Source: an uncultured Ruminococcus sp.
Lineage (GTDB): Bacteria > Bacillota > Clostridia > Oscillospirales > Acutalibacteraceae
Length of the DNA stretch: 13,542 nt
Assembly (NCBI GenBank): GCA_951800855.1
Contig: CATOLC010000011.1
Location: forward strand, 1-13,542
Direction: 5' to 3'
Of the stretch, positions 3,394 to 11,513 are shown one piece after another. A program made the position numbers and the translations under genes. The notes below the pieces were generated by a model. The model had not been told where the DNA came from. It saw nothing but the letters and a program-made list of their open reading frames with translations, and made no database searches. Each line of letters starts with the position of its first letter. The stretch's first letter is position 1.

Positions 3394-3422
3394 TTGTATT
3401 TTGTTTTTGAGTGTGTTATACT
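3394..3422 (+). promoter_or_regulatory. Promoter of BspA-type gene 1 (family-shared)
   Basis: TTGTAT (3394-3399), a 17-base spacer and TATACT (3417-3422) with an extended TGn just before the -10. The same arrangement and surrounding bases (ATATTG...TTTTTGAGTGTGTTATA...TTAATATTAAGAG) recur before BspA-type genes 2 and 3, which supports a conserved promoter. The -35 box is weak, so the extended -10 probably matters. Confidence 0.6.
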
Positions 3423-3477
3423 TAATATTAAGAGAAAAGGAGGCTATGTTTTAAAAATTATGAAAAGGAGAAAAATT

Positions 3478-4206
3478 ATGAATTTTGAAAAAAAGAAAAT
3501 GGGTTTAGCTGCTAAAATTAGCGTAGCTATGGTTTTAGGCATAGGTTTTATAGGAGCTCTTCCCAGCGTGATGCCAAATAGCAGTGTGGTAAGTGCAGAA
3601 GAAATTGAGATAGGCGTTAATTATTATGATGAACAAACCAAAACCTTAACTTTCACGGGCATAGAAATTGATGATATCGAGTTATTTGACTCAAGAAAGG
3701 TTTCTACAGACCAAATAGAACATGTTGAGATTTCAGATGGAGTAACATTGATTCCGTATTGGGCTTTTCAAAATTTTACTAATCTTAAGTACGTTACAAT
3801 TCCTAGTAGCGTAGAGTCAATTGGGTGGGGCGCTTTCGGAGGTTGCACCTCTCTTGAAAATATTGTCCTACCTGAGAACTTAACAAAAATTGAGCGGGAA
3901 GCTTTCGCTGACTGCACCTCTCTTCAACACATTGAAATTCCTAATGGTATAAAATCAATTGGGATTCGAACTTTTAGTAACTGCAGTAATCTTACAGCAA
4001 TTATACTTCCTGATAGTATAAAGTCAATTGAGTACGGTGCTTTCAAAGACTGCACCTCTCTTAAATACGTGATCTGGCCTGAGAGCGTAACGTCAATTGA
4101 TATGTGCGCTTTTGAGAATTGTATTGCTTTGCCCAAACCTAGTCTTCCTAAAAGGGTGGTCGTTGGACAAAATGCTTTTAGAGGTTGCCAGCCTGAACAA
4201 AATTAA
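3478..4206 (+). CDS. BspA-type leucine-rich-repeat exported protein 1
   Basis: The 242-residue protein has a signal peptide (about residues 1-40, MNFEKKK then a hydrophobic core, probable cleavage VSA|EE), a short N-terminal region with YYDEQTKTLT, then about six 23-residue LRR_5/BspA repeats of the form I-IP-SV-SIG-AF-CTSL, ending in PEQN. Repeats of this family form a solenoid used in surface binding to host or microbial partners. No LPXTG, SLH or other anchor is visible, so how it stays at the cell is unclear. I start at ATG 3478 with AAAAGGAG seven bases upstream; an upstream TTG at 3394 lies in the promoter and is rejected. A second ribosome-binding-like AAAAGGAGG (3435-3442) is followed by a two-codon ATG TTT TAA. 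It is the shortest and plus-strand member of a family with 7692-9116 and 9467-10285, and its last repeat and 38 bp of 3' flank nearly match copy 2. Confidence 0.88.
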   Translation: MNFEKKKMGLAAKISVAMVLGIGFIGALPSVMPNSSVVSAEEIEIGVNYYDEQTKTLTFTGIEIDDIELFDSRKVSTDQIEHVEISDGVTLIPYWAFQNFTNLKYVTIPSSVESIGWGAFGGCTSLENIVLPENLTKIEREAFADCTSLQHIEIPNGIKSIGIRTFSNCSNLTAIILPDSIKSIEYGAFKDCTSLKYVIWPESVTSIDMCAFENCIALPKPSLPKRVVVGQNAFRGCQPEQN

Positions 4207-4475: not shown

Positions 4476-4508
4476 ATATAAAAATAATATAAATAAGGGG
4501 TGATTTTT

Positions 4509-5660
4509 ATGCCACAGAAACAAAGAAGGAGACTAAAAAGAAGAGATGCGAAAGACTTGCGTCCAGTTTCGGAAGAGGAGATGAGGAATCTCGTTCGTAA
4601 AAAAAAGGCTGACGAAGAGCAGGCTAACGAAGAACAGTCTGACGAAGAACAGTCTGACGAAGAGTGGAAAAACATACCGGAAAAAACCAGAAAAATTTTT
4701 GCGAAGTATGTACTGGAAGACAGAGGTTATCAAATTATTAGATTTTTAGGTCAAGGTGCTTATAGTACAGTTTATGAATGTAAAAATCCACAAGGGGAAC
4801 CGGTCGCCGCAAAAGTTGTAATGTCGAATAAAGATGACATAGACGGACTTGTAGATTTGCTGACTGAGGTGGACGCAGTGGCGGACCTTGCAAAAATGAA
4901 ACCAATAGATTGGGACAAATACTCAGATTCATTTTTGGAAAGTATTGCTTTGAAAGCTAAAGGGCAAGCTCAAACAGCGAAAAAGCGAGCTGAGCATTAT
5001 TATAAATATATTAACCGGCCTGTTAATAAAGGTGCATACGAATATCAGAATGGAAAAAAATATTATTCTATCTATGAGGCTCCGATAGCCACAATGGATG
5101 CTTGGACTGAATTTATTGAAAAGAAAGGTCCAATTGATTATGAAGAGGTAAAAAGAATGTTGGACCAAGTTTTAAAAGCTTTGGTTTTTCTTCATAGTCA
5201 TGGAAGAGTCCATCTTGATATAAAACCTCAAAATATTCTTCGAGGAACCAAACCAAATGGCAAAAGTTTATCTCAATTATCTGATATGGGACTTATAGAT
5301 GTTGTTGTTGGTCCTGATGGTACTGATAACACTGCTAATATCAGATGGAAAGTAACCGAGTGGTATAAAGCCCCGGAACAATTGGATGAGTGTATTCTTG
5401 ATCCTAAACAGATTTATAAAATTGATATTTACTCTTTGGGAGCAACTTTACTTCAGATTTATTTATCAAAAAAGGGGGAACCTGCTGGCAATACACGTTC
5501 GCAAGTCGTGAAATTGCAGGCGGGGACATATATAAGAGAAGAACACTCTGAAATTGGACGCAGATTATTGCATCTTTTAAAAAAAATGACAGCTAAAAAT
5601 CCTGAAGACAGACCTACAGCTCTCGAGATTTTTAAAGACCCTTTCCTATCTAAGAAATGA
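4509..5660 (+). CDS. Soluble Hanks-type Ser/Thr protein kinase
   Basis: The 383-residue protein is a eukaryotic-like kinase that phosphorylates serine or threonine. Core motifs are present in order: glycine loop GQGAYSTV (81-88), AAK lysine K102, a likely alpha-C glutamate E120, catalytic loop HLDIKPQN (235-242), DMG (259-261, in place of DFG), APE (288-290), DIYSLG (306-311) and R368. The catalytic aspartate is preceded by L rather than R, making it a non-RD kinase that may not need activation-loop phosphorylation. There is no membrane segment and no PASTA domain, so it is not a PrkC/StkP orthologue and should be cytoplasmic. The N-terminus is basic (RRRLKRR) and then acidic, with four 15-bp tandem repeats encoding xDEEQ. 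The ATG at 4509 follows AAGGGGTG; the GTG at 4500 lies inside that site. The substrate is unknown; the gene sits beside exported LRR proteins and a PBP. Confidence 0.92.
   Translation: MPQKQRRRLKRRDAKDLRPVSEEEMRNLVRKKKADEEQANEEQSDEEQSDEEWKNIPEKTRKIFAKYVLEDRGYQIIRFLGQGAYSTVYECKNPQGEPVAAKVVMSNKDDIDGLVDLLTEVDAVADLAKMKPIDWDKYSDSFLESIALKAKGQAQTAKKRAEHYYKYINRPVNKGAYEYQNGKKYYSIYEAPIATMDAWTEFIEKKGPIDYEEVKRMLDQVLKALVFLHSHGRVHLDIKPQNILRGTKPNGKSLSQLSDMGLIDVVVGPDGTDNTANIRWKVTEWYKAPEQLDECILDPKQIYKIDIYSLGATLLQIYLSKKGEPAGNTRSQVVKLQAGTYIREEHSEIGRRLLHLLKKMTAKNPEDRPTALEIFKDPFLSKK
4608..4667 (+). repeat. Four 15-bp tandem repeats inside the kinase gene
   Basis: Four consecutive 15-base units (4608, 4623, 4638, 4653) of the form KCTRACGAAGARCAG encode ADEEQ, ANEEQ, SDEEQ, SDEEW. 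The reading frame is kept for any copy number, so slippage would change the length of an acidic linker before the kinase domain. Confidence 0.85.
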
Positions 5661-7691: not shown

Positions 7692-9116
7692 TTAATTTTG
7701 TTCAGGCTGGCAACCTCTAAAAGCATCTTGTCCAACGACCACCCTTTTAGGAAGACTAGGTTTGGGCAAAGCAGTACAATTCTCAAAAGCCTTAATCCCA
7801 ATCGACGTTATACTTTCAGGAAAGTTTACGTGTTCGAGAGACCTGCAGCCACTGAAAGCCGCCCACCCAATTGATGTTAAGCCAGCAGGGAGGATAATGT
7901 CATGAAGAGAGGTGCAGCCAGCGAAAGTCCCGCAACCAGTTGATGTCATACCACTAGGAATGATAATTTCTGTAAGTTTTCTGCAGTTATTGAAAGCATA
8001 GTTCCCAATGGATTCTACACTATCAGGGATTTCAATCTGTTCAAGAGAGAAACAGTTAGCGAAAGCATTGTCTCCAATTTCTGTTAATCCCGCCGCAGGG
8101 AGGGCAACATGTCTTAGAGAGGTGCAGTTTTGGAAAGCGTTGTAACAAATTGATGTCACGCTATTATTGATTGTAATGTATTCAAGAGAGGTGCAGTTTC
8201 TGAAAGCGTATCTCCCAATTGATTTTACGCCATCAGGAATTATAATTGCTGTAAGATTACTGCAGTGCTCAAAAGCGCTATCTCCAATTGATGTTACATT
8301 ATTAGGGATTTCAATGCCTTCAAGAGAGGTACAGTTATCGAAAGCCCTGTTTCCAATTCCTGTTAAGCTCACAGGGAGGACAACATTTCCAAGAGAAGTG
8401 CAGTCAATGAAAGTGCACCTCTCAATTGATTTTACGCCATCAGGAATTATAATTTCTGTAAGATTACTGCAGTGGCCAAAAGCGTGGGCTCTAATTGACG
8501 CTACGCTACTAGGAATTTCAATGCGTTGAAGAGAGGCGCAGCCAGCGAAAGCGAAGTCCTCAATTGCTGTTAAGCTCTCAGGGAGGACAATATTTTCAAG
8601 AGAGGTGCAACCAGCGAAAGCGTGGGCTCTAATTGACGCTACGCTACTAGGAATTTCAATGCGTTGAAGAGAGGTGCAACCAGCGAAGGCGAAGGCCTCA
8701 ATTGCTGTTAAGTTCTTAGGGAGGACAATATTTTCAAGAGAGGTGCAGCCTTCGAAAGCGTGGGCTCTAATAAACGCTACGCTACTAGGAATTGTAACGG
8801 ACTTAAGATTAGTAAAATTATTTTTAAAATCCCAATACGGGATCGATATTACTCCATTTAAAATCACAACATGTTCTATTTGGTCTGTAGAAACATGTCT
8901 TGAGTTAAATAACTCGATATCATAAACTTGTCTGCCCGTGAGAGTTAAGGTTTTGGTTTGTTCATCATAATAATTAAAGCCTATCGTAATTTCTGCGGCA
9001 CTTACCACACTGCTATTTGGCATCACGCTGGGAAGAGCTCCTATAAAACCTATGCCTAAAACCATAGCTACGCTAATTTTAGCGACTAAACCCATTTTCT
9101 TTTTTTCAAAATTCAT
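7692..9116 (-). CDS. BspA-type leucine-rich-repeat exported protein 2
   Basis: The 474-residue protein is the longest of the three family members. It has the same signal peptide (residues 1-40, cleavage near VSA|AE) and YYDEQTKTLT region as protein 1, then about sixteen 23-residue LRR_5/BspA repeats alternating IEIP-SVASI-HAF and IVLP-LTAI-FAF types, and the same C-terminus GCQPEQN. Such solenoids usually act in adhesion or recognition; the repeats carry a cysteine at a regular site (GCTSL). No cell-wall anchor is seen. I start at ATG 9116 with AAAGGAG (GGAG 9124-9127) seven bases upstream; longer readings up to 9245 run back through the promoter. The DNA has 69-bp periodicity with nearly identical 138-bp double repeats at 8482 and 8620, showing recent expansion. 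It lies upstream of the PBP gene on the same strand with a hairpin between them. Confidence 0.9.
   Translation of the reverse strand: MNFEKKKMGLVAKISVAMVLGIGFIGALPSVMPNSSVVSAAEITIGFNYYDEQTKTLTLTGRQVYDIELFNSRHVSTDQIEHVVILNGVISIPYWDFKNNFTNLKSVTIPSSVAFIRAHAFEGCTSLENIVLPKNLTAIEAFAFAGCTSLQRIEIPSSVASIRAHAFAGCTSLENIVLPESLTAIEDFAFAGCASLQRIEIPSSVASIRAHAFGHCSNLTEIIIPDGVKSIERCTFIDCTSLGNVVLPVSLTGIGNRAFDNCTSLEGIEIPNNVTSIGDSAFEHCSNLTAIIIPDGVKSIGRYAFRNCTSLEYITINNSVTSICYNAFQNCTSLRHVALPAAGLTEIGDNAFANCFSLEQIEIPDSVESIGNYAFNNCRKLTEIIIPSGMTSTGCGTFAGCTSLHDIILPAGLTSIGWAAFSGCRSLEHVNFPESITSIGIKAFENCTALPKPSLPKRVVVGQDAFRGCQPEQN
8482..8795 (-). repeat. 138-bp tandem repeats within BspA-type gene 2
   Basis: Units start at 8482, 8620 and 8758, the last partial. 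Each full unit covers two 23-codon LRRs (46 residues) and the first two copies differ at only a few bases. Units stay in frame, so unequal crossing-over would add or remove pairs of repeats without breaking the gene. Confidence 0.88.
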
Positions 9117-9174
9117 AATTTTTCTCCTTTTTATAATAATTTTTAAAATATAGCTTACTTTCCTCTTAATATTA

Positions 9175-9203
9175 GTTATAACACATCCAAAAATAAAACG
9201 CAA
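9175..9203 (-). promoter_or_regulatory. Promoter of BspA-type gene 2 (family-shared)
   Basis: On the minus strand TTGCGT (9203-9198), a 17-base spacer and TATAAC (9180-9175) with TGT just before it. The flanking bases match those before genes 1 and 3, including TTAATATTAAGAG-like sequence downstream of the -10. Confidence 0.58.
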
Positions 9204-9262
9204 TATATTTTTAAAAATAAACAAGATTAAGAGTATTGTTTTCAAATAATATTATATTGAGG

Positions 9263-9494
9263 TCATTTTTGCTTAGGAAAAAAAGATGTTTCAACATTTC
9301 TAAGTTGCTTAGTTTTTACAATCTTATCTACCAGATTGGGATTATTCAGAGTAATATTAGTAATGGGGCATTCAGAAAAAGCCCAAACCCCAATTGATGT
9401 TATACTCGAAGAAATAGTAACGGATTTAAGATTCAGAAACCTTCGAAAGCGATGTTCTAATTGATTTTATCCTAGCAGGGATTGTTGTAAGATT
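9263..9494 (-). pseudogene. Frameshifted 3' remnant of a BspA-type gene
   Basis: Downstream of and overlapping the end of BspA-type gene 3, repeat-like protein sequence continues in changing frames. NLTTIPARIKSIRTS is encoded in one frame from 9494, AFEG in another near 9445, and in a third LNLKSVTI, ITSIGVWAFSECP and a tail ending FFPKQK before a TGA at 9263-9265. These are clear LRR_5 repeats interrupted by at least two small indels. The simplest reading is that gene 3 once continued here and its 3' part has decayed, with the present stop at 9467 arising after a shift. A separate truncated copy is also possible. It is not expected to make a normal protein. Confidence 0.75.
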
Positions 9495-10285
9495 TCCCCA
9501 TCTGGGGGTTGCGCATTATACCTATGGGTTTTATTATTATTAAAATTTGAGCACCTATCAAAATCAGCTAGAGCGTTTTTGATCATTCGAATTGGTACAC
9601 TATTAGGTAATTTAATGTCAGTAAGGTTTGAACAACCAAAGAAAGCACAATTCCAAATTGATGTTACACTATTGGGTATGATAATATTATTAAGCTTTGA
9701 GCAATTATAGAAAGCAAAGCTTCCAATTGATGTTACACTGTCGGGTATGATAATATTATTAAGTTTTGAGCAATTATAGAAAGCACCATCCCCAATTGAC
9801 GTTACGCTTGTAGGGATAGTAATAGAGGTAAGGCCTCTGCAGCCATCGAAAGCATATTTCCTAATTGATGTTACATTATCAGGTATGATAATATTATTAA
9901 GTTTTGAGCAACCATAGAAAGCGTAGCATCCAATCGACGTTACATTACTAGGTATCGTAATGTTAGTGAGTTGTGCACAATTCTCGAAGGCATACGCAGG
10001 GATTATTGTTGTTTGTTCTGAAATTACGATGTTCTCTACTTCGCTTTTGATATTATCGTCTATATCCAGAACATCATTATTCCTGATGGTCGGAACAGTT
10101 AAAGTTTTTGTTTGGGAACAATAAAATATATTAGAGTTGCGGTTGTTTATTTTAATTTTTTCTGCGTTTACCATGCCGATATTCGGCACCACGCTAGGAA
10201 GAACCCCCATAAGACCTACGCCTAAAACCATAATAGATGCACTGATTTTAGCAACTAAACTCATTTTCTTTTTTTCAAAATTCAT
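9467..10285 (-). CDS. BspA-type leucine-rich-repeat exported protein 3 (3' end probably altered)
   Basis: The 272-residue protein has a signal peptide closely related to those of proteins 1 and 2 (MNFEKKK, core to about residue 40, cleavage near VNA|EK), a short N-terminal region with SQTKTLTV, and six 23-residue LRR_5/BspA repeats richer in asparagine (NCSKLNNIIIP type). From the seventh repeat on the pattern fails, and the last 30 or so residues (FNNNKTHRYN onward) do not resemble the PEQN ending of its relatives. Real repeat sequence resumes in other frames immediately downstream (9263-9494), so this C-terminus is likely the product of a frameshift. I start at ATG 10285 with GGAG (10292-10295) six bases upstream; the longer reading to 10447 passes through the promoter. 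It is more divergent from the other two than they are from each other. Surface or secreted binding is inferred from the family. Confidence 0.82.
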   Translation of the reverse strand: MNFEKKKMSLVAKISASIMVLGVGLMGVLPSVVPNIGMVNAEKIKINNRNSNIFYCSQTKTLTVPTIRNNDVLDIDDNIKSEVENIVISEQTTIIPAYAFENCAQLTNITIPSNVTSIGCYAFYGCSKLNNIIIPDNVTSIRKYAFDGCRGLTSITIPTSVTSIGDGAFYNCSKLNNIIIPDSVTSIGSFAFYNCSKLNNIIIPNSVTSIWNCAFFGCSNLTDIKLPNSVPIRMIKNALADFDRCSNFNNNKTHRYNAQPPDGEILQQSLLG

Positions 10286-10311
10286 AATTTTCTCCTTTCC
10301 TCTTGATATTA

Positions 10312-10340
10312 ATTTTAACACACTCAAAAACAAATCACAA
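10312..10340 (-). promoter_or_regulatory. Promoter of BspA-type gene 3 (family-shared)
   Basis: On the minus strand TTGTGA (10340-10335), a 17-base spacer and TAAAAT (10317-10312) with TGT just before it. The flanking sequence (ATATATTG, TTTTTGAGTGTGTTA, TTAATATCAAGAGG) aligns with the promoters of genes 1 and 2. Here the leader is about 30 bases shorter, lacking the duplicated ribosome-binding segment. Confidence 0.57.
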
Positions 10341-10349
10341 TATATTTTT

Positions 10350-10481
10350 GGTAGTGCAGAGAGTATAGATAAAAACAAGAATAAAATTATCTGCGAAATA
10401 CAATTTTTAGTGTACAACAATTTTAAACAACCATTTTCTTTATTCAATCTCTATCATTTTTTCTATACCTTCTCTGCTACC
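10350..10481 (-). repeat. Imperfect inverted repeat upstream of BspA-type gene 3
   Basis: GGTAGTGCAGAGAGTATAGA (10350-10369) is the reverse complement of TCTATACCTTCTCTGCTACC (10462-10481) apart from two two-base gaps, with further pairing inside (GAATAAA with TTTATTC). The arms are 92 bp apart and the inner arm ends 10 bp upstream of the promoter of gene 3. It may be a large hairpin, a decayed small mobile element, or a regulator binding region. No ORF with a good start lies within it. Confidence 0.5.
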
Positions 10482-10517: not shown

Positions 10518-10539
10518 AGAGGAGGGAAAATCCTCCTCT
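10518..10539 (-). terminator. Terminator of the Nif11-like two-gene unit
   Basis: AGAGGAGG and CCTCCTCT form a perfect eight-base stem with a six-base loop (10526-10531), 31 bp after the stop of the downstream gene. On the minus strand TTATATT follows, a short T-tract, while the plus strand has none, so it is assigned to the minus strand. Confidence 0.65.
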
Positions 10540-10570: not shown

Positions 10571-10969
10571 TTACAACCAGAATATTGAATGCTGCATCCC
10601 GCCATTATCATTTTTTTCATCATTAACCTGGGAAGCAATAGAATTTATTAATTGATAAGTCCCGGCATTATTTAATACTGATGAACCAGCAGCAGCATCT
10701 TCAAAAAATTCATCGGGTAGCTCGGTTTTTGTTACAGAAGCTTTAACCATTTCAATAAAATCATCAATTTCTTTTTCGCTTAGTACTACACCTCTATTAT
10801 TAAATAATTGTTGCATAGATTTTAAGGTTTTTTGAGAAATTAATTTTTCTACAAATTCTTTATCCATTGCAAGAGCTCCCAATGCTTCTTTTTGGTCACT
10901 CAATACCAAACCGCATTCTTGATTCGTTAAAATGATATCGTCTTGTATGTTTTTATTATCTTTTTCCAT
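10571..10969 (-). CDS. Nif11-like leader protein, possible RiPP precursor
   Basis: The 132-residue product has a helical, acidic region (about residues 35-85: ALAMDKEFVEKLISQ, FNNRGVVLSEKEIDDFIEMV) with the pattern of Nif11-type leaders, followed by ELPDEFFEDAAAG. That ending resembles the LSDEEL-VAGG double-glycine-type site where leaders of ribosomally made peptides are cut. The part after it, about 37 residues from SSVLNN to SIFWL, is rich in S, N and Q and has no cysteine, so a lanthionine or thioether core is unlikely. I start at ATG 10969 with AAGGAGG nine bases upstream; an upstream in-frame start at 11002 precedes that site and is rejected. It is the second gene of a unit with 11024-11443, which has a related leader. 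No modifying enzyme or peptidase-containing transporter lies in the window. The family assignment is by eye and tentative; the gene itself is well supported. Confidence 0.68.
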   Translation of the reverse strand: MEKDNKNIQDDIILTNQECGLVLSDQKEALGALAMDKEFVEKLISQKTLKSMQQLFNNRGVVLSEKEIDDFIEMVKASVTKTELPDEFFEDAAAGSSVLNNAGTYQLINSIASQVNDEKNDNGGMQHSIFWL

Positions 10970-11023
10970 GATATGTAACCTCCTTACATAAGCACATCTC
11001 ACCCTTTACTCTCTATTAATATA

Positions 11024-11443
11024 TTAATTTATTTCCCATAAAACTCTGGTTCTAAGATATTTTTTTTTAGCCCCAAAAATAAGGCATGAAATCGCAAATA
11101 TCCCTTTGGAAATAGTTTCTCCATCATAAATTTTTTTATTCAAAAAGAAGTCTTGAGGATATTTATTTTTGCTATTGTAAAAAAAATTATATAAATCCTC
11201 GTTAAAATTTCCTCCAACTCCTATATTCTTTCCAGCTTCTTTAATAATATTTGAGTCTTCTTCGTCCAAAATACTTTCATTTTTTTCCAGATCATAAACA
11301 ATATTTTTTATTTTTTCTACATCCTTCAATTCAACATCAATACCTTTTTTGTACAGAGCACTCTTAACTTGGTCATATGATCGGAAGCTGAGAATTTGCT
11401 TTAAAAGATTTTGATCTTCGGATAAAGCTGATAAGTTATTGAT
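11024..11443 (-). CDS. Nif11-like leader protein with an ATC at the expected start
   Basis: The reading frame is open from a stop at 11444-11446 to the stop at 11024. Its N-terminal part (NLLKQILSFRSYDQVKSALY, then KKGIDVELKDVEKI) aligns with the leader-like part of the neighbouring protein, so translation should begin near the frame's start. The strong site GGGGGTG (11450-11456) lies six bases before ATC at 11443, exactly where ATG belongs, and no in-frame ATG exists; the first TTG (11329) would cut off the conserved region and lacks a ribosome binding site. Either ATC is used, or the start was lost by mutation or misread. From ATC the product would be 139 residues. A GVGG that could be a cleavage site lies about residue 75, followed by a 60-residue part with one cysteine and a hydrophobic stretch (GIFAISCLIFG). 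It is first in a unit with the gene at 10571-10969. Function unproven. Confidence 0.55.
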   Translation of the reverse strand: MNNLSALSEDQNLLKQILSFRSYDQVKSALYKKGIDVELKDVEKIKNIVYDLEKNESILDEEDSNIIKEAGKNIGVGGNFNEDLYNFFYNSKNKYPQDFFLNKKIYDGETISKGIFAISCLIFGAKKKYLRTRVLWEIN

Positions 11444-11484
11444 TTAAATCACCCCCAGTTGTTTAAAAACACTTTATACAGTAT

Positions 11485-11513
11485 ATAATATATCAATTTT
11501 TGTTAAATGTCAA
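11485..11513 (-). promoter_or_regulatory. Consensus promoter of the Nif11-like unit
   Basis: On the minus strand a perfect TTGACA (11513-11508), a 17-base spacer and TATTAT (11490-11485). This is the best sigma-A promoter in the window. It starts 25 bp after the mltG stop, with no terminator between, and gives a leader of about 35 bases to the GGGGGTG site. Confidence 0.78.

Follow-up and report, generated by a model that had tools for sequence, protein, structure and literature searches.

Nif11-type leaders are usually taken as a sign of RiPP biosynthesis. One of the closest described counterparts of the locus analyzed here is the combination of Nif11-derived peptides (TIGR03798) with the exporter TIGR03794/03796/03797, in the account of Haft et al. 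2010 (PMC2887384). The shared features include a helical leader with an ELSDEELxxVxGG-like end, paralogous sets of leader proteins and an exporter consisting of two ABC proteins and an HlyD-like protein. The two proteins described here, denoted A and B, differ from those in that account in that they are not scored by TIGR03798, their leaders end with A-G and their predicted cores comprise 68 and 37 amino acids (the table in PMC2887384 gives 23 residues behind the N11P leader); in addition, the HlyD-like component in relatives scores below the model cut-off.

Two other systems are relevant for comparison. The Lah system of Lachnospiraceae C6A11 (LahT/LahA), which belongs to a related phylum group, also combines several Nif11-type leaders and diverse cores with one C39 transporter, and LahT150 is described as accepting very different cores (PMC6363468). 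However, Lah is a lanthipeptide cluster in which the precursors are encoded beside the transporter, whereas in the present case the leader genes are dispersed, and a search of the six exporter-encoding genomes discussed below revealed no LanC-like enzyme. Class II microcin and bacteriocin export, as described for microcin V (PMC10231218), resembles the present case in that unmodified small proteins are exported behind a GG leader, but involves a single ABC protein and an outer-membrane route, unlike the two-ABC exporter and long leader found here in a Gram-positive-type lineage. In that system, cargo of 26-66 amino acids is reported to be exported well and cargo of 116 amino acids poorly (PMC10231218), a range that fits the core of B, makes the core of A a borderline case (just above) and speaks against the large leader proteins considered below unless the exporter differs.

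The A-B gene pair

The window, that is, the entire stretch of 13,542 nucleotides that was analyzed, is contig C11 of a 951-kb MAG (genome G000) with a completeness of 77%, about a quarter of the genome being missing. As originally predicted, the window contains two adjacent genes, A and B, which form an operon-like pair on the minus strand, downstream of an mltG-like gene (read by eye). The features of this region are as follows.

11024..11443, minus strand: gene A, 139 codons plus stop; ortholog in genome G001, homologs P0012-P0015
11231..11443, minus strand: predicted Nif11-type leader domain of A, with the end ...IIKEAG (leader profile and hhalign)
11027..11230, minus strand: predicted core of A, 68 amino acids, one cysteine, conservation equal to that of the leader
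10571..10969, minus strand: gene B, 132 codons plus stop; homologs P0004-P0011
10685..10909, minus strand: predicted Nif11-type leader domain of B, with the end LPDEFFEDAAAG (leader profile and hhalign)
10574..10684, minus strand: predicted core of B, 37 amino acids, without cysteine, variable among homologs
11485..11513, minus strand: site resembling a promoter, TTGACA-17-TATTAT, preceding A and matching the consensus at 11 of 12 positions
10518..10539, minus strand: terminator-like stem after B (consensus scan)
11441..11456, minus strand: ribosome-site-like GGGGGTGAT followed by ATC, probable non-AUG start of A, with the spacing kept in G001

A promoter-like site corresponding to the consensus promoter that had been claimed for the pair is present, and its TTGACA is retained upstream of the A ortholog in G001 (the one additional genome of this genus among the samples used); the consensus scan yielded 9 such sites, compared with 6.5 +/- 2.5 in shuffled sequences. 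The terminator-like scan yielded 2 sites, compared with 0.5 in shuffles. Gene B starts with the ATG at 10969, which has a good ribosome site, the longer GTG frame extending to 11002 being less likely. The frame of gene A contains no ATG, GTG or TTG before codon 39 and opens with ATC at 11443, directly after a stop codon. The distance from the G run of GGGGGTGAT to this ATC is eight bases; in the G001 ortholog, an equal distance separates the G run of GGGAGG from an ATA, and an ATG follows three codons further on. Gene A probably starts at a non-AUG codon (ATC), a feature that is possibly conserved in the congener. Because the ortholog keeps both the ribosome site and its distance, such a start is preferred, if not proven, over the possibility that gene A is damaged, which we set aside. 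The database protein P0012, which differs from A by one residue, is likewise called from an internal TTG of the A frame.

Eight database homologs of B were identified, with 52-71% identity, and four of A, namely, a near-copy of 101 amino acids, two full-length proteins and one fragment. In G001, the gene order is 5-formyl-THF cyclo-ligase, mltG, A, B, PBP (the three neighbors were named by eye), so that the pair is conserved together with its flanking genes in a second species; in the window, two LRR_5 (BspA-type) genes are located between B and the PBP-like gene. Among 60 relatives, the profile of B produced matches at E <= 0.001 in three genomes, G000, G001 and G006 (paralogs in the latter), and in G001 it detected gene A (3e-5) along with B. 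A contig-level scan with the B sequence alone gave no match, and the same scan with the B alignment gave one locus, in the congener. Leader-bearing orthologs are also found in the same place behind a ybbR-like gene (identified by eye) in both genomes of the genus (L107:1854-2348 in G000:C2 and L108:2076-2627 in G001:C1), and appear to be further fixed chromosomal leader genes of the genus. Elsewhere in the window, three LRR proteins of the BspA type that share one signal-peptide region are encoded at 7692-9245, 9467-10447 and 3394-4206 (the first two with Pfam LRR_5 matches, the third recognized by eye), and a protein with a protein kinase domain (Pfam Pkinase, 113 bits), a charged N-terminus and no visible membrane anchor at 4500-5660.

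Remote homology to double-glycine leaders

A leader profile was constructed from 11 canonical double-glycine leaders encoded in genomes G000, G001, G006 and G034, with A and B left out. This profile matched B with 43.4 bits (E 8e-12, model positions 2-71 of 72) and A with 30.7 bits (E 7e-8, model positions 5-65 of 72), compared with 12.0 bits for the best of 3000 shuffled decoys. Profile-profile comparison with the GG-leader alignment using hhalign yielded an E-value of 6e-12 for B, over columns 2-72 of 72 and reaching the last G, and 4e-11 for A, over columns 6-69 and ending before the cut site is reached; A requires an extra residue beside that site in the joint alignment. The similarity between the helical parts of A and B, which had been noticed by comparison of the two sequences, is above chance (profile-profile E 1.4e-6 over 55 columns), and both proteins match a leader profile that contains neither. 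Comparison at this level supports the presence of a Nif11-type leader domain in both A and B, so that the original prediction of Nif11-like leaders appears to be correct as a statement of remote homology.

The search against TIGR03798 that had been suggested as a check recovers neither protein, with no match for A or B at E <= 10 (the model cut-off is 32.3 bits). The top TIGR03798 match in the same genome, C110, which has the site GGG, itself reaches 19.1 bits, below the cut-off; B matches C110 at E 2e-5, and the homology of A and B to TIGR03798 leaders is reached via intermediates only. Along with C110, the genome contains two further leader genes, C21 and C2, and a weaker fourth case, C16. 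Among PDB sequences, the best match of the leader profile is 9zn4, a "Nif11 domain-containing protein", at a weak level (E 0.004 and 0.001). The AlphaFold2 models of A and B are all-helical, with a fair pLDDT for A (71) and a poor one for B (54), and in Foldseek searches of these models against PDB there was no match at E <= 0.001.

Several other matches were set aside as unsupported: D-alanine ligase and nucleotidyltransferase (NCBIfam) for A/B (weak, E >= 0.02), DUF2789 for B (17.3 bits, cut-off 27), ZSWIM4-8_C and Transketolase_C for A (weak), and a PHROG of unknown function for A (21.1 bits). Also set aside was a PHROG match of B (25.7 bits, E 2e-5) to a family annotated as "DNA binding protein", although this is the least easily dismissed of these matches.

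Predicted cut site and divergence of the cores

The predicted cut site reads A-G in both proteins and in both species, and the double-glycine end is absent; the leader end DAAAG given in the original prediction is that of B. In the nine-row alignment of B, six rows have AAG, and the others have SAG, SVG and AAG after I. Among 58 leader proteins (E <= 1e-6) in the loci examined, 47 align to GG, whereas A and B of both species and C21 from the same genome, the leader of which also ends with AAG, align to AG. The six other non-GG cases are partly misalignments, with L111 and one L120 frame showing GG in a second match. The cut motifs named for C39 exporters are GG, GA and GS (PMC6363468).

The tail of B is more divergent than its leader in all eight comparisons with P0003 (p from 0.015 to 1e-6, the comparisons not being independent). 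Among P0004, P0005 and P0006, the leaders are identical (0 of 74 positions differ) and the tails differ at 5, 7 and 2 of 34 positions (p 0.0025, 0.0002 and 0.10). For A, no difference between the rates of leader and core was detected in any of six comparisons. The hydropathy of the B tail is low (0.33) relative to most other cores, and the median core of the 58 leader proteins is 60 amino acids long.

An NHLP-type exporter in the same genome

Genome G000 encodes an ABC2 protein (TIGR03797, contig C23) that scores 693 bits against a cut-off of 709. Directly upstream is a remnant of ABC1, 5'-open at the contig end, with 510 bits over positions 321-709 of 710. The exporter is thus present, and its peptidase half would be located beyond the contig end, the contig beginning inside the ABC1 frame. 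Peptidase_C39 was not found in this incomplete genome, and the HlyD-like part was not seen in it, the contig ending inside ABC1. In G001 and G006, ABC1 (899 and 894 bits, respectively; cut-off 853), ABC2 and a short HlyD-like protein are encoded together, the HlyD-like proteins scoring below their cut-off (94.5 and 82.7 of 156.2 bits) and ABC2 likewise below its own. The description of the pair as an orphan therefore holds for the window but not for the genome, which has the NHLP-type exporter (ABC1 remnant and ABC2) and the additional leader genes. The same applies to the reported lack of LanM, radical SAM, cyclodehydratase and peptidase-transporter: none was recognized in the window, but the genome encodes such a transporter and one SPASM radical SAM protein.

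The leaders and the exporter co-occur. Six of the 60 relatives have ABC2 at >600 bits, and all six have a TIGR03798-type match (E <= 0.01), as opposed to 3 of the 54 others; a single genome of the 60 has a match over the TIGR03798 cut-off. In a family sample of 150 genomes, with ABC1 matches counted at a threshold of 1e-120, leader matches were found in 11 genomes and ABC1 matches in 25, with all 11 contained within the 25. In 10 of the 11 leader genomes, ABC1 exceeds the curated cut-off, and the eleventh is G000 with its remnant. When the four genomes used to build the profile are excluded, ABC1 is present in 7/7 leader genomes versus 21/146 (5e-7, uncorrected for relatedness). Fourteen genomes show an ABC1 match without a leader match; three of these, at 456-542 bits, may encode other transporters, and the remaining ones must have other cargo or leaders missed by the profile.

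G001 encodes, in addition, a bacteriocin transporter of the classical C39 type (TIGR01193, 1039 bits; L030:40-4603, G001:C66), in a locus that also contains HlyD-like and LytTR-like genes (identified by eye) and a small GG-leader peptide.

Modification enzymes

LanC-like enzymes were detected in 0/6 exporter genomes, compared with 1/14 in the control set. No modification enzyme was recognized beside A and B in the window (gene names assigned by eye) or beside the pair in G001. SPASM proteins are present in all six exporter genomes. Of the 12 SPASM proteins listed, 5 were classified: one each in G001, G006 and G034 is a SCIFF maturase; for the G000 protein and the second one of G001, the best models are TIGR04103 and TIGR03913, far below the cut-offs (for G000, a nif11-class maturase model, 207 bits versus a cut-off of 725). 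Short GG peptides adjoin both of these non-SCIFF proteins, three of the four with PLYG or KYGVP-like motifs (by eye). The respective loci, L129:6800-8592 (G000:C24) and L130:7454-9711 (G001:C11), combining the SPASM radical SAM protein with peptides that have a ...ELGEIAGG-like leader end, likely represent a separate small RiPP system of the genus. G037 and G041, which are relatives at the order level, each encode a SPASM protein near the exporter and leader genes; hence, the wider group includes genomes with the classical RiPP arrangement.

Probable unmodified cargo and the alternatives

The finding of nothing beside the pair that would modify a peptide, together with a matching exporter in the genome, suggests that the leader serves as a tag for the export of plain proteins. 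We infer, with a probability of roughly 0.6, that the NHLP-type exporter carries A and B as leader-tagged cargo that remains unmodified. Of the three options offered in the original prediction, namely, a remote precursor set, an unmodified secreted peptide system and a non-RiPP use of the fold, the second fits best. Under this scenario, ABC1 would bind the helical Nif11-type domain of A and B through its C39 peptidase part and would cleave each protein at the end of the leader, in this case after A-G; the complex of ABC1, ABC2 and the HlyD-like protein would release the unmodified cores of 68 (A) and 37 (B) amino acids outside the cell. Conceivably, though with low confidence, the cores might act together as a two-part system in which A is the constant component and B the variable one. 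Several observations count against the cargo reading: A-G is outside the named GG, GA and GS motifs, the alignment of A stops before the site, the C39 part was not found in G000, curated models are silent on A and B, B has its PHROG match, and SPASM proteins occur near the exporter and leaders in two order-level relatives.

Some of the same observations would be accommodated if A and B descended from exported leader proteins and retained the leader while staying in the cell, where the leader fold would bind the exporter or another partner, as a decoy, regulator or helper. The A-G in both A and both B orthologs, set against the GG of most leader proteins, the core of A that is conserved as much as its leader, the low hydropathy of the B tail and the match of B to a DNA-binding family all fit this possibility, which we nevertheless regard as unlikely: C21 of the same genome also has AAG, which suits a shared processing habit, and conservation of the leader of B alongside change in its tail is the pattern predicted for a leader that is recognized by some partner and a tail that is set free.

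That A and B are RiPP precursors, with the enzyme encoded at another locus or in the part of the genome that is lacking, appears less probable still. In its favor, RiPP precursors with Nif11 leaders are known (PMC2887384), the available genome lacks about a quarter of its sequence, and a SPASM radical SAM protein is common to G000 and G001, in G000 with its best, if low-scoring, match to a nif11-class maturase; but that protein has its own short GG peptides adjoining in both genomes, LanC-like enzymes are lacking in the six exporter genomes, the core of B contains no cysteine and that of A only one, and the core of A is long and conserved. A chance likeness of helical proteins, with A and B being an unrelated cytoplasmic pair, could account for the lack of a curated family match and for the lack of fold matches in PDB at E <= 0.001, the model being poor for B and fair for A. 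This explanation is, however, largely refuted by the leave-out profile with its shuffle control and is further at odds with the profile-profile matches and the 11/11 co-occurrence of leaders with the exporter, and we consider it highly improbable.

Large proteins with leader-like N-termini in related genomes

Several features of this system are unusual: the A-G site, the contrast in B (not seen in A) between a conserved leader and a rapidly diverging tail, the non-AUG codon at which A probably starts, and the large leader-like proteins of relatives. In related genomes, leader-like N-termini are found on four proteins of 380-557 residues, in which a leader or leader-like GG end precedes about 270-490 residues.

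L111:1081-2754: 557 residues, AAA (28 bits); leader support good (1e-9)
L114:2000-3358: 452 residues, APH-like kinase (APH, 34.5 bits); leader support weak (TIGR03798, 0.002)
L015:8854-10266: no Pfam match; leader support weak (0.0004)
L112:1081-2223: no Pfam match; leader support weak (0.006)

In all four proteins, a hydrophobic stretch directly follows the GG. In the titles and abstract openings listed by literature searches outside the subscription journals, we found no mention of large unmodified proteins with Nif11 leaders.

A possible, if doubtful, generalization is that, in one group of Eubacteriales, most of them with small genomes, the NHLP/Nif11 bacteriocin exporter became a general protein secretion system, in which the leader would be a detachable tag on unrelated proteins, from tails of about 30 residues to the 557-residue AAA protein and the 452-residue APH-like kinase, with A and B as A-G members; the cargo may act on a eukaryotic partner, for example, a protist. 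The eukaryotic partner is a guess motivated by the Ras-family proteins of G006 and by the protein kinase and BspA-type LRR proteins of the window. The pairing of leaders with the exporter (11/11), the lack of LanC-like enzymes (0/6) and the large leader proteins make it a testable question whether NHLP exporters move ordinary proteins; whether the C39 peptidases of this clade accept A-G is testable as well. These findings also carry a warning, in that some "orphan RiPPs" reported by genome mining for Nif11 leaders may not be RiPPs.

The three Ras-family GTPases of G006 are encoded at L014:6734-7582, L072:69-887 and L110:2162-3199 (Pfam Ras, 89, 71 and 34 bits, respectively), and two of them start with a Sec-like signal (identified by eye). 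All three are encoded on contigs that were examined for other reasons, and Nif11-type leader pairs (C52, C61) are present on two of these. In the same genome, a predicted exported protein with a sub-threshold ubiquitin match (18.7 of 25.4 bits) is encoded beside ABC1-ABC2 (L032:6632-7411, G006:C71).
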